From Dehalococcoidales bacterium (GTDB lineage: Bacteria; Chloroflexota; Dehalococcoidia; Dehalococcoidales; UBA1222), in assembly GCA_016286345.1 (NCBI GenBank), contig JAEESL010000005.1:1-53548 (forward strand): DNA of 53,548 nt, read 5' to 3'. Shown here piece after piece: positions 33,278-36,893 of this stretch. Numbering within the stretch: the stretch's first letter is position 1; each line of letters begins with the position of its first letter. The notes below the pieces were generated by a model. The model was given only the letters and a program-made list of their open reading frames with translations, was not told the origin of the DNA and made no database searches. A program made the position numbers and the translations under genes.

Positions 33278-33287
33278 TATAATACAT

Positions 33288-33361
33288 GGCGCATTCGTCT
33301 AGCGGCCTAGGACGTGGCCCTCTCAAGGCCAAGATCACGGGTTCGAATCCCGTATGCGCTA
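33288..33361 (+). tRNA. tRNA-Glu (anticodon CTC)
   Basis: Acceptor GGCGCAT/ATGCGCT with a G1-T72 wobble, D stem GTC/GAC, anticodon arm TGGCC-CTCTCAA-GGCCA giving CTC (reads GAG), T arm ACGGG-TTCGAAT-CCCGT, discriminator A. No CCA encoded. The U72 wobble is uncommon but possible. Confidence 0.93.
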
Positions 33362-33392
33362 TTTCCCATTAATAATATTCCTAAGGGCATAA

Positions 33393-34085
33393 ATGAAAGC
33401 AGCTAAAGCTATTGCAAAGGAAGTTGTTCAAACGCTTTTGCCTATACTGCTTGTTGTCCTGGTAATGCAGCTTGTATTTATTCGTCCGGGCCTGATGGAA
33501 TGGCTCGATTTTGTAATAGGTGTTTTGCTTACAGCGGTAGGGATGTTCCTGTATCAGCTGGGCGCAAAACTTGGCTTGCTTCCCATGGGCAATGCCATTG
33601 GTTCCGGTATCTCGCTGTGGGGTACTACCGTATTGATAGTCTTGGTCTTTCTGACTATCGGTTTCGCGATAACGATGTCGGAACCCAATGTGGCGGTATT
33701 GAGCAATCTGGTTGAATCTATCACCGATGGCAGGATCAGCGGTGATCTTCTGCAGTTGTCCGTTGCTTATGGCGCGGGAGTCATGCTTATTGTTGCCATT
33801 ATCTGTATGATCAGAAAGATCTCCTTTAAATATCTCTATCTTATCGGATACGGTGTTGTTCTGATTATTTCTTTCTTCGTTCCTGCGGATTATCTGGCTA
33901 TGGCATTTGATGCCGGAGGATTCTCCTCAGGTCTGATCAGTAATCCGTTTCTTCTCACCACCGGAACCGGTATTGCTTCACTTATGTCCCGCAGAGGCAG
34001 TGCGGCCGCCAATGGTTTCGGTATCATAGGCTTTACTGCTCTCGGACCTATCCTTGCAGTAATGATAATAGGACTGTTCGTATGA
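33393..34085 (+). CDS. DUF1538 membrane protein, first of a pair
   Basis: A 230-aa protein with about six hydrophobic segments. DUF1538 marks are LIVLVFLTIGFAITMSEPNVAVL in the middle and PADYLAMAFDAGGFSSGLISNPFLL near the end. Paired DUF1538 proteins have been reported, as I recall, as a two-component Na+(K+, Li+)/H+ antiporter (UmpAB) in a Halomonas. By analogy this would be one half of a cation/proton antiporter or a related transporter. It overlaps the second DUF1538 gene by 4 nt (ATGA) and sits 31 nt after tRNA-Glu, with AAGGG before its ATG. Confidence 0.85.
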   Translation: MKAAKAIAKEVVQTLLPILLVVLVMQLVFIRPGLMEWLDFVIGVLLTAVGMFLYQLGAKLGLLPMGNAIGSGISLWGTTVLIVLVFLTIGFAITMSEPNVAVLSNLVESITDGRISGDLLQLSVAYGAGVMLIVAIICMIRKISFKYLYLIGYGVVLIISFFVPADYLAMAFDAGGFSSGLISNPFLLTTGTGIASLMSRRGSAAANGFGIIGFTALGPILAVMIIGLFV

Positions 34086-34846
34086 CGATATTCACTGAAA
34101 TATGGGATTATCTTGTTGCGAATATTTCCAGCATTGCGAATGGACTGCTTCCTATTGTCGTATTGTTTCTCATACTTCAGATCGCATATCTGAAAATGCC
34201 TTTCAAGGGTGTTATGAAAATGATCGCCGGAGCACTTATAGCGGCTGTCGGTCTGATGCTTTTCATCGCCGGCGTGAGTATATGTTTTTATCCTCTCGGA
34301 GAAAAAATAGGTGCGGTTATTGCAACGTTTGAATATAAGTGGATGATACCTGTATCAGGTCTTATCCTAGGTTTTGTGGCAGCGCTCAGCGAACCTTCGA
34401 TCCGAATTCTTGCTGATCAGCTGTCTGACTTTACCAGCGGTGTAATTAAACGCAATCAGGTCATTATCACTATTTCCATCGGTGTAGCCATTGCCTGTGC
34501 TGTTGGAATGCTCAGACTGGTTTACGGAATACCGATTCGTTATTTTATCATTCCGGGTTATGTCCTTATCCTCGGACTGATGTTCCTTTGCGATCCGCAG
34601 TACGTGACTATGGCTTTCGACTCGGGTGGTGTAGCCACAGGTCCTCTTCCTGCAGTATTCCTTACTGCTGTAGCGATAGGACTTCTTTCATCAATTAGCG
34701 ATGTACAGTCTTCAGCTGACAGTTTTGGTCTTGTGGCACTTATAGTTATGGCGCCAATTATTGCGATGCTCCTTCTGGGCATTGTGTATAGGATTGCAAA
34801 AAGCAGAAGCAGAAGAAAAGGAATTGAATACAAAACAAGAGGTTAA
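34082..34846 (+). CDS. DUF1538 membrane protein, second of a pair
   Basis: A 254-aa partner with the same architecture: IPVSGLILGFVAALSEPSIRILADQL and PQYVTMAFDSGGVATGPLPAVFL mirror the SEPN and AFDAGG motifs of the first gene, so the two arose by duplication. It has about six transmembrane helices and a basic cytosolic tail (RIAKSRSRRKGIEYKTRG). Overlap with the upstream gene and 5-nt spacing to the PII-like gene indicate one operon. The expected role is one subunit of a heteromeric cation/proton transporter; the transported ion is not visible in the sequence. Confidence 0.86.
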   Translation: MTIFTEIWDYLVANISSIANGLLPIVVLFLILQIAYLKMPFKGVMKMIAGALIAAVGLMLFIAGVSICFYPLGEKIGAVIATFEYKWMIPVSGLILGFVAALSEPSIRILADQLSDFTSGVIKRNQVIITISIGVAIACAVGMLRLVYGIPIRYFIIPGYVLILGLMFLCDPQYVTMAFDSGGVATGPLPAVFLTAVAIGLLSSISDVQSSADSFGLVALIVMAPIIAMLLLGIVYRIAKSRSRRKGIEYKTRG

Positions 34847-34851
34847 AGTGT

Positions 34852-35337
34852 ATGAATACTATGGATGTTTGTTTGATTGTCTCTATTGTGAGAAAAGGCT
34901 GGGCTGAAAAGGTAATCAGTGCAGCAAAAAGTCATGGAGCTACAGGCGGCACAACCATGCTGGGCAGAGGTGTCGGAAAAAGTGATGCACCTAAGATCCT
35001 CGGAATGGAAATAGAGCATGAACTTGAAATAGTTCTTGTTGTGACCCCCAGAGCCGTCAGTGATTCCGTTATACGTGAGATCTCAGACTCATGCGGTATC
35101 AGTGATGACGGACACGGAATACTGTTCGTTGTTCCTGTAGAAAGTGTTATCGGTCTTTCAGAAGCAGTTAATCTCTGGTCTGACGAAGAAATCAAAGCTT
35201 CCAAGAATGACAAAGATGAGAAGAATACTGATAAAAAAGAGAAAGAAGACAAAAAGGAAAAGAAAGATAACAAAAACAAGGAAGAGATTCTCAACATCTG
35301 GCCTGATGATGAACTGATTCCTCCTGAGGCACGTTAG
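34852..35337 (+). CDS. PII-like regulatory protein with charged C-terminal tail
   Basis: A 161-aa protein. Residues 1-105 look like a PII/GlnB-type ferredoxin fold: CLIVSIVRKGWAEKVISAAK, SHGATGGTTMLGRGVGKSD (the T-loop region) and LEIVLVVTPRAVSDSVI. It lacks the classical uridylylation tyrosine context. Residues about 117-143 are a run of Lys, Asp and Glu, followed by EEILNIWPDDELIPPEAR. The phrase NLWSDEE before the charged run is echoed by NIWPDDE after it. It is encoded with two DUF1538 transport proteins, so it probably gates that transporter in response to a small ligand. Confidence 0.8.
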   Translation: MNTMDVCLIVSIVRKGWAEKVISAAKSHGATGGTTMLGRGVGKSDAPKILGMEIEHELEIVLVVTPRAVSDSVIREISDSCGISDDGHGILFVVPVESVIGLSEAVNLWSDEEIKASKNDKDEKNTDKKEKEDKKEKKDNKNKEEILNIWPDDELIPPEAR

Positions 35338-35421: not shown

Positions 35422-36135
35422 GTGAAGAAAATACTATTGAGTATTCTTGTTCTGGCGCTTGTGCTGAGCTCAGCTGCATGCGGAAAAAAGGATGATAAGG
35501 ATAAGGACAACTATCTATACACTTCAGTTATTGAGTATGAGTACAACAATAACGGCAATGCTGTCAAAACCACTTACCGTGATAAAAACGGTGATATAGA
35601 AAGCTGGATCAGAACAGAATATGAACAGGATGGAACAAAGTCGCTTACTTCATATTTCGATAAAAACGGAAATATTCAAAACAGACAGTACTATGAATAC
35701 GATTATGATGGAAATCTGACCAAGGATTCTTTGTATGATGGCTATAATTCTCTCATTTCATACCAGAAATATGAGTATTCAGATGACGGAAAAAGTGTAA
35801 AAACTGTTTATTATAAAAAGACAGTTGCGGAAAGATCTTCATTGACCACATATGATTCATCCGGAAATGTTGTCAGTATAGTTTTATACGATGGTTCCTC
35901 TAAGATTTACGAAAAGGATGAATATCAGTATGATCAGAGCGGGAGGATCAGTAAAATCACTTTCTATGATGGTACGAATACAGTTACCTCATATGAAGAA
36001 TATGAATATGATTCATCCGGAAAAAACATCAAGACTGCAATTTATGATTCCGGCAGCACTATGATTATGAGATCTGAAAACGAATTTGATGCGAAGGGAA
36101 ATGTCATTAAAACAACATTCTATTACTATTCTTAA
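35422..36135 (+). CDS. Lipoprotein with YD/MORN-like tandem repeats
   Basis: A 237-aa secreted lipoprotein. The signal MKKILLSILVLALVLSSAAC carries a lipobox (SSAAC). The mature part is a series of about eight repeats of some 23-28 residues, each with a core like YEYDxxGN, YEYSDDGK, YQYDQSGR, YEYDSSGK, with alternating aromatic residues and Ser/Thr. This is the pattern of RHS/YD-type beta repeats. The start is GTG with AAAGGAGG 6 nt upstream, and a terminator follows. It would sit on the outer side of the membrane; the binding partner is unknown. Very Asp/Tyr/Lys rich. Confidence 0.8.
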   Translation: MKKILLSILVLALVLSSAACGKKDDKDKDNYLYTSVIEYEYNNNGNAVKTTYRDKNGDIESWIRTEYEQDGTKSLTSYFDKNGNIQNRQYYEYDYDGNLTKDSLYDGYNSLISYQKYEYSDDGKSVKTVYYKKTVAERSSLTTYDSSGNVVSIVLYDGSSKIYEKDEYQYDQSGRISKITFYDGTNTVTSYEEYEYDSSGKNIKTAIYDSGSTMIMRSENEFDAKGNVIKTTFYYYS

Positions 36136-36227: not shown

Positions 36228-36893
36228 CTATCCTGCCTGTGCTTCATCCTTTTTTTCGGCAGCTTTTTCCTGTCGCTCTTTCATTGTCTTTTCATATTCA
36301 TTTCGGACATATTTCTCAAGTTCATCAAGAGCTGGAGGAGAAACATAGAATACCTGGATGTCAGGATCAAACTGCAGCTTATGACCTTCTTCAAGGAAGA
36401 GCAGGGCAGTCTGCTGAGGCCCCAGTTCTTTGTTGATGGTATTCTGCAGATATTCATCCCGTGCTTCAATGCTCTTCTTGTAGTTTTCCGAAACCACATC
36501 ATATACAGATTTAGTCATGATCTGGGAAGTCTGAATGATTCTGTTCCAGTCCATGAATACTTCAAAGAGTTCTCTGTCTTCAATTACCTTGAATTTGGTG
36601 CCTTCTTCCAGGGCACTTTCGATAATCAGATAACTTCCGCATCCATATGATTCAGTTGTTTTCTTAATGTCTTTATCATCGACCAGCATTTCATGGAAGA
36701 TGTAATCTGCCATGCCGATTTTTCCCTGAAGTTCGTATACCTGGTCAAATGCCTGTTTCCAATATCTGTCAACATAATCATTGATAGTTGAATTCTGCTT
36801 GCTGACAAGGAACAGCAACGGGATAAGGATTAATTTTCGATCGTTCTTATACTGATCTGCTGATGGCTTTTCAATTTTACCTAGTTCTGCCAT
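36228..36893 (-). CDS. Conserved-looking hypothetical protein, 221 aa
   Basis: I do not recognise this family with confidence. The protein starts MAELGKIEKPSADQYKNDRK, has a short hydrophobic stretch (LILIPLLFLVS) that is probably buried rather than a membrane helix, a helical centre (VDRYWKQAFDQVYELQGKI), a segment LLFLEEGHKLQFDPDIQVFYV, and a coiled, Lys/Glu-rich tail (EYEKTMKERQEKAAEKKDEA). A very strong SD (GGAGGGGG) precedes the ATG, suggesting good expression. It is monocistronic, divergent from holB. I faintly recall similar MAELGKIEKP starts in Dehalococcoidia hypotheticals. Confidence 0.6.
   Translation of the reverse strand: MAELGKIEKPSADQYKNDRKLILIPLLFLVSKQNSTINDYVDRYWKQAFDQVYELQGKIGMADYIFHEMLVDDKDIKKTTESYGCGSYLIIESALEEGTKFKVIEDRELFEVFMDWNRIIQTSQIMTKSVYDVVSENYKKSIEARDEYLQNTINKELGPQQTALLFLEEGHKLQFDPDIQVFYVSPPALDELEKYVRNEYEKTMKERQEKAAEKKDEAQAG

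Follow-up and report, generated by a model that had tools for sequence, protein, structure and literature searches.

A DUF1538 gene pair kept together with a PII-like gene in Bacteria and Archaea: a candidate PII-controlled cation/proton antiporter

A three-gene locus in a Dehalococcoidales genome and its surroundings

The window, by which we mean the whole stretch of 53,548 nucleotides analysed from a Dehalococcoidales bacterium (contig JAEESL010000005.1), carries three genes arranged head to tail on the forward strand. The first two code for DUF1538 proteins, A (230 aa, the UmpA-like half; 33393..34085, +) and B (254 aa; 34082..34846, +), both assigned from Pfam PF07556 (E=2.9e-52 and E=1.7e-60; 177.5 and 204.3 bits, cut-off 22.6, with profile positions 1-211 of 211 covered in each). 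The third, starting 5 nt past B (34852..35337, +), codes for a 161-aa PII-like protein (Pfam P-II, E=3e-7, 31.2 bits, cut-off 25), the proposed regulator of A/B on the strength of its PII fold and of co-occurrence in both directions. The start of B and the stop of A overlap in an ATGA (34082..34085, +), from which translational coupling of the two can be inferred. Coordinates and Pfam matches agree with the preliminary description of this DNA, which had reported the DUF1538 pair, the ATGA overlap and the PII-fold gene 5 nt further on. A and B are the only DUF1538 genes of the genome (G000), which has two PII domains: that of the PII-like protein and a canonical one at the C-terminus of a 573-aa Amt-PII fusion (contig C66, L003:1468-3189).

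A tRNA-Glu(CTC) gene (33287..33362, +; ARAGORN) ends 30 nt before A, a layout also found by ARAGORN in the sister species G001; other tRNA genes lie 5' of the DUF1538 pair elsewhere (Val in L008, Asn and Glu in L009). A scan for sigma-70-like promoters between tRNA-Glu and A gave no site, an uninformative outcome given that chance yields six. Just 3' of the unit lie a lipoprotein-like reading frame with RHS/YD repeats (35422-36135) and, on the reverse strand, a gene for a 221-aa protein matching no Pfam or NCBIfam model (36228-36893), a relative of which also adjoins the unit in G001 (L010:277-948). Complete small genomes of a sister family hold 24-53 reductive dehalogenase matches each, from which Dehalococcoidales is the probable order.

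Distribution and variants of the DUF1538-PII unit

Among 61 genomes around the order, seven have the DUF1538 pair, with the PII gene directly behind it in six and, in the seventh (G005), a PII-like gene kept on another contig. A profile-based census of 399 genomes of the phylum found DUF1538 in 33 and a strong PII-like match, i.e., at least 53 bits with the PII-like profile (next best, 37 bits), in 32, all of them among those 33. The nominal Fisher p of this co-occurrence, about 2e-46 uncorrected for relatedness, is to be read as a description and not as a probability, since related genomes are not independent. The sole DUF1538 genome of the 399 that lacks the PII-like gene, G376 (L170), has a pair that is fragmented and broken by a stop.

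Beyond the phylum, a scan of GTDB bacteria and archaea found a PII gene beside the pair in 74 of the best 80 matching loci, which belong to Firmicutes, Deltaproteobacteria, Balneolaceae, Aminicenantes, Spirochaetaceae, Bradyrhizobium, methanogens and others. Taxonomic sampling is uneven throughout, and the GTDB scan, seeded with a pattern and limited to the best 80 matches, may have passed over more divergent DUF1538 genes free of PII, a bias that the profile-based phylum census does not share. The six loci with no adjoining PII gene are either at a contig edge (L057, L076, L122) or intact (L067, L074, L086). In two Bacillaceae genomes with intact pairs a search of the whole genome gave no PII-like gene, and an archaeon with an intact pair and no adjoining PII yielded only a weak, canonical-like PII match, so the PII protein is dispensable in some lineages. 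In Pseudomonadota, PII is present at all of the best 30 UmpA-like loci and at 19 of 19 further loci of one order, from which one locus at a contig end was left out, making 49 of 49 intact UmpA-like loci checked, none of them from a genome over the UmpA cut-off and thus probably none from Halomonas. The preliminary description had staked its reading on a conserved linkage and on a PII fold of the third protein; the linkage is indeed very strongly conserved, in 32 of 33 phylum genomes and 74 of 80 GTDB loci.

The composition of the unit varies. A and B are frequently fused into a single chain of ~500 aa, and the PII gene lies upstream of the pair in G184; fusion of DUF1538 with PII was not seen in the loci examined, where the long frames are A-B fusions. 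Two PII domains, in tandem or as two genes, are present at 57 of the 74 GTDB loci with PII, and one at the other 17. Where PII is doubled, most conserved positions are gone from the first domain but preserved in the second (L043-L122), a pattern which suggests a pseudo-heteromeric partner; single PII proteins and second domains alike retain GxG, GGT and GRG, residues that surround the canonical ligand cleft. A recurrent third neighbour that might hint at the substrate was not found, the largest gene cluster covering 4 of the 80 loci, and genes resembling MgtE or CDF, identified by eye, adjoin it at single loci. As no other family recurs beside the unit, A, B and PII can be regarded as the working unit.

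Conserved genetic linkage between PII and transporter, a trait of PII-regulated transporters, is therefore present here, and the trio being kept together across bacteria and archaea argues that the PII-like protein is probably a dedicated control of the A/B exchanger. A search of the open literature (subscription journals fell outside its scope) found no work joining DUF1538 with PII, and the link is apparently undescribed before.

The DUF1538 pair as a distant relative of UmpAB

A function for a DUF1538 pair comes from UmpAB of Halomonas zhaodongensis, a Na+(Li+,K+)/H+ antiporter assayed in everted vesicles (Meng et al. 2017, PMC5484666), so the cation/proton antiport given in the preliminary description for such pairs proves correct. 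E. coli KNabc becomes tolerant of Na+, Li+ and alkaline conditions only when it has both UmpA and UmpB, and the two co-precipitate as a heterodimer (PMC5484666). UmpAB homologues have also been listed among marine-adaptation genes in a study of cable bacteria (PMC10030654). The window proteins share with UmpAB the Pfam family and the arrangement as adjacent, overlapping genes for two homologous membrane proteins, the joint requirement for both being a feature of UmpAB. However, against the equivalog models NF041627 and NF041628 (cut-offs 490 and 500) A and B reach 55-98 bits, with 84-98 bits for the two against the UmpA model (83.8 for A; cut-off 490), and are thus distant relatives of UmpAB to which no equivalog assignment is given. 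For this reason the substrate of the window pair may differ, and the exact cation is inferred.

Hydropathy and the charge of the loops speak for seven membrane segments in each protein, in place of the six helices proposed at first, in line with the seven predicted for both UmpA and UmpB (PMC5484666). When Lys+Arg are counted loop by loop over 115 distinct unfused pairs and that of the window, the means alternate in opposite sense in A and B at all eight compared segments (e.g., 2.59 in A vs 0.37 in B at the N-terminus, 0.46 vs 3.14 in the first loop and 0.12 vs 4.14 at the C-terminus). By the positive-inside rule, this opposite bias suggests that A and B are antiparallel with seven segments each, A having its N-terminus inside and its C-terminus outside, and B its N-terminus outside and its positively charged C-terminus inside.

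The best candidates for cation/proton sites are an invariant Glu and an invariant Asp in each half, as judged from two alignments used for residue conservation (A1 and A3). In A these are the membrane Glu-Pro E97-P98 (33681..33686, +), whose equivalents are invariant in A3, and D173 of the FDAGGFSSG motif (33906..33932, +), the equivalent of which is likewise invariant in A3; in B they are the Glu-Pro E104-P105 (34391..34396, +), invariant in A1 and A3, and D180 of the FDSGGVATG motif (34616..34642, +), of which D, G, G and T are invariant in A1. The transporter model was built not for A/B of the window but for a fused homologue from Clostridium sp. N3C (L119:3221-4714; 497 aa, pLDDT 90.8, pTM 0.89), and shows helix breaks at the invariant Glu-Pro in both halves. 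DUF1538 sequences had no match among PDB sequences, and the modelled fold no significant match in the PDB (best E 0.024, TM at most 0.2); the fused DUF1538 pair would thus possibly represent a new transporter fold.

The PII-like protein and its proposed role

An AlphaFold2 model of the PII-like protein, made from 25 aligned sequences, has a beta-alpha-beta-beta-alpha-beta ferredoxin-like core (strands 6-14, 32-37, 58-66 and 89-95; helices 18-26 and 67-81); outside the T-loop, pLDDT lies mostly at 82-97. The top 50 matches of a PDB fold search are all PII proteins (GlnB/GlnK, plant and algal PII, SbtB), which confirms the second point on which the preliminary description depended. The T-loop (residues 38-57; 34963..35022, +), delimited by alignment with the canonical Amt-PII of the genome and by the strand limits of the model, is ~5 residues shorter than that of the canonical PII and lacks the tyrosine of YYRG. 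In the same alignment, the B-loop equivalent GISDDGHGI (residues 82-90; 35095..35121, +) keeps GxG and has GHGI for GDGK, with loss of the lysine, and the C-loop RTGE of the Amt-PII is absent. A charged C-terminal tail of low confidence (residues 105-161; 35164..35334, +; pLDDT about 47-65) holds a pair of short motifs resembling each other, NLWSDEEI and NIWPDDEL, of which the latter recurs in G001 as DIWPDPEL; these are possibly a tethering motif. Residues G29, T34, R39, G40, G42, G87 and G89 are conserved in the subfamily and are presumably the surroundings of the canonical PII ligand cleft.

Two known identities can be set aside: the protein is not a canonical GlnB/GlnK, lacking the T-loop tyrosine, GDGK and RTGE, nor an SbtB, lacking the C-terminal CGPxGC R-loop, which is conserved in some SbtB homologues (PMC8352866). 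SbtB and SbtA, a PII-like control of a Na+/bicarbonate transporter (PMC8352866), nevertheless resemble the present system in that a PII-fold gene adjoins a secondary transporter, and SbtB figures among the top fold matches, whereas SbtA belongs to another transporter family and the window protein has a shorter T-loop. With GlnK-AmtB the system has in common the genetic linkage of a small PII protein with a transporter, and the plug serves as a working analogy; AmtB is, however, of another family, and this genome encodes a canonical PII separately, as the Amt fusion, which has the motifs missing from the window protein. PstA, a PII-like protein binding c-di-AMP, is similar in its PII fold and its signalling outside nitrogen, but no diadenylate cyclase was detected in this genome or in eight relatives.

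The latter point bears on the ligand. The diadenylate cyclase (DAC) domain was not found in the window genome (91% complete) or in those eight relatives of the same order or class, which include G001 and the closed genomes G154 and G278, and c-di-AMP is accordingly unlikely as the native ligand here. One of six Pseudomonadota genomes checked has DAC (G466, as opposed to G523, G729, G755, G450 and G836), as do some other genomes that carry the trio. The metabolite-controlled antiporter of the preliminary description is upheld in part, in its PII fold, its linkage and the antiport of UmpAB, while c-di-AMP, one of its suggested ligands, loses ground. By analogy with SbtB, the best remaining guess is an adenine nucleotide; absence of the phosphate-binding lysine and of the C-loop RTGE means that nucleotide binding is not assured.

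We regard it as fairly probable that A/B is an antiparallel monovalent cation/proton antiporter and that the PII-like protein is its ligand-responsive cytoplasmic regulator, slowing antiport. A and B would form a pseudo-symmetric heterodimer of the DUF1538/UmpAB kind, and the PII-like protein a ligand-responsive trimer that would dock through its short T-loop on the inner, cytoplasmic side of A/B, slowing antiport or bringing it to a halt, as GlnK does on AmtB and SbtB on SbtA. This reading builds on the genes, folds and co-occurrence described above and on the published antiport of the related UmpAB free of PII: the UmpAB constructs held umpA and umpB alone, and PII is unmentioned in the paper (PMC5484666). 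As antiport was measured with no PII partner, PII is not catalytic in UmpAB and is probably a regulator, a role which the intact pairs lacking a PII partner also fit. Against docking, no A/B trimer is known, unlike the usual PII target transporters; in passages of a 2023 review of transporter regulation, PII targets are seemingly limited to transporters working as trimers. Those passages give Amt, nitrate, urea and SbtA transporters as being under PII control, and DUF1538 is absent from them.

It is unlikely, though worth weighing, that A/B carries another substrate under PII control, a divalent metal or small anion for instance; Na+/H+ exchange by UmpAB would then be specific to its branch. 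The window pair lies far under the UmpA and UmpB cut-offs, growth-based screens pick up side activities, and an MgtE-like or CDF-like gene adjoins the unit at single loci; yet everted vesicles with UmpAB showed antiport of Na+, Li+ and K+, the acidic residues within the membrane do not vary across the DUF1538 family, and metal-transport genes do not recur beside the unit. Somewhat less likely still, the PII-like protein might read out A/B, being recruited or released by ion flux and then acting on other targets, much as sequestration of GlnK at the membrane by AmtB is described as established in passages of the 2023 review; a doubled PII with one degenerate copy would allow docking and signalling to be distinct roles. 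However, in the 399 genomes the PII-like subfamily is never found apart from DUF1538, and the loci have no third gene in common, so there is no obvious other PII target. That the PII-like protein serves to assemble or stabilise the A/B heterodimer and is not a ligand switch is very improbable: adjacency is near-universal and the first of two PII domains has lost the conserved cleft motifs, but UmpAB forms and functions in E. coli with no PII, and the GxG, GGT and GRG cleft residues persist wherever PII is single and in the second domain where it is doubled.

Regulation of A/B by the PII-like protein thus being preferred, there is, as a more tentative proposal, a nearly even chance that the trio represents an undescribed class of PII-gated ion antiporter in bacteria and archaea, combining an antiparallel two-gene or fused transporter, of a fold so far unseen in solved structures, with a separate PII subfamily that frequently couples a conserved domain to a degenerate one. 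Judging from the modelled homologue, the DUF1538 transporter may be a new structural class. PII proteins are known for their control of nitrogen and bicarbonate transport. If the present reading is true, PII control would extend to cation and pH homeostasis, and exchange of Na+, K+ and H+ controlled by PII through a widespread trio would directly couple metabolic state to pH and ion balance.
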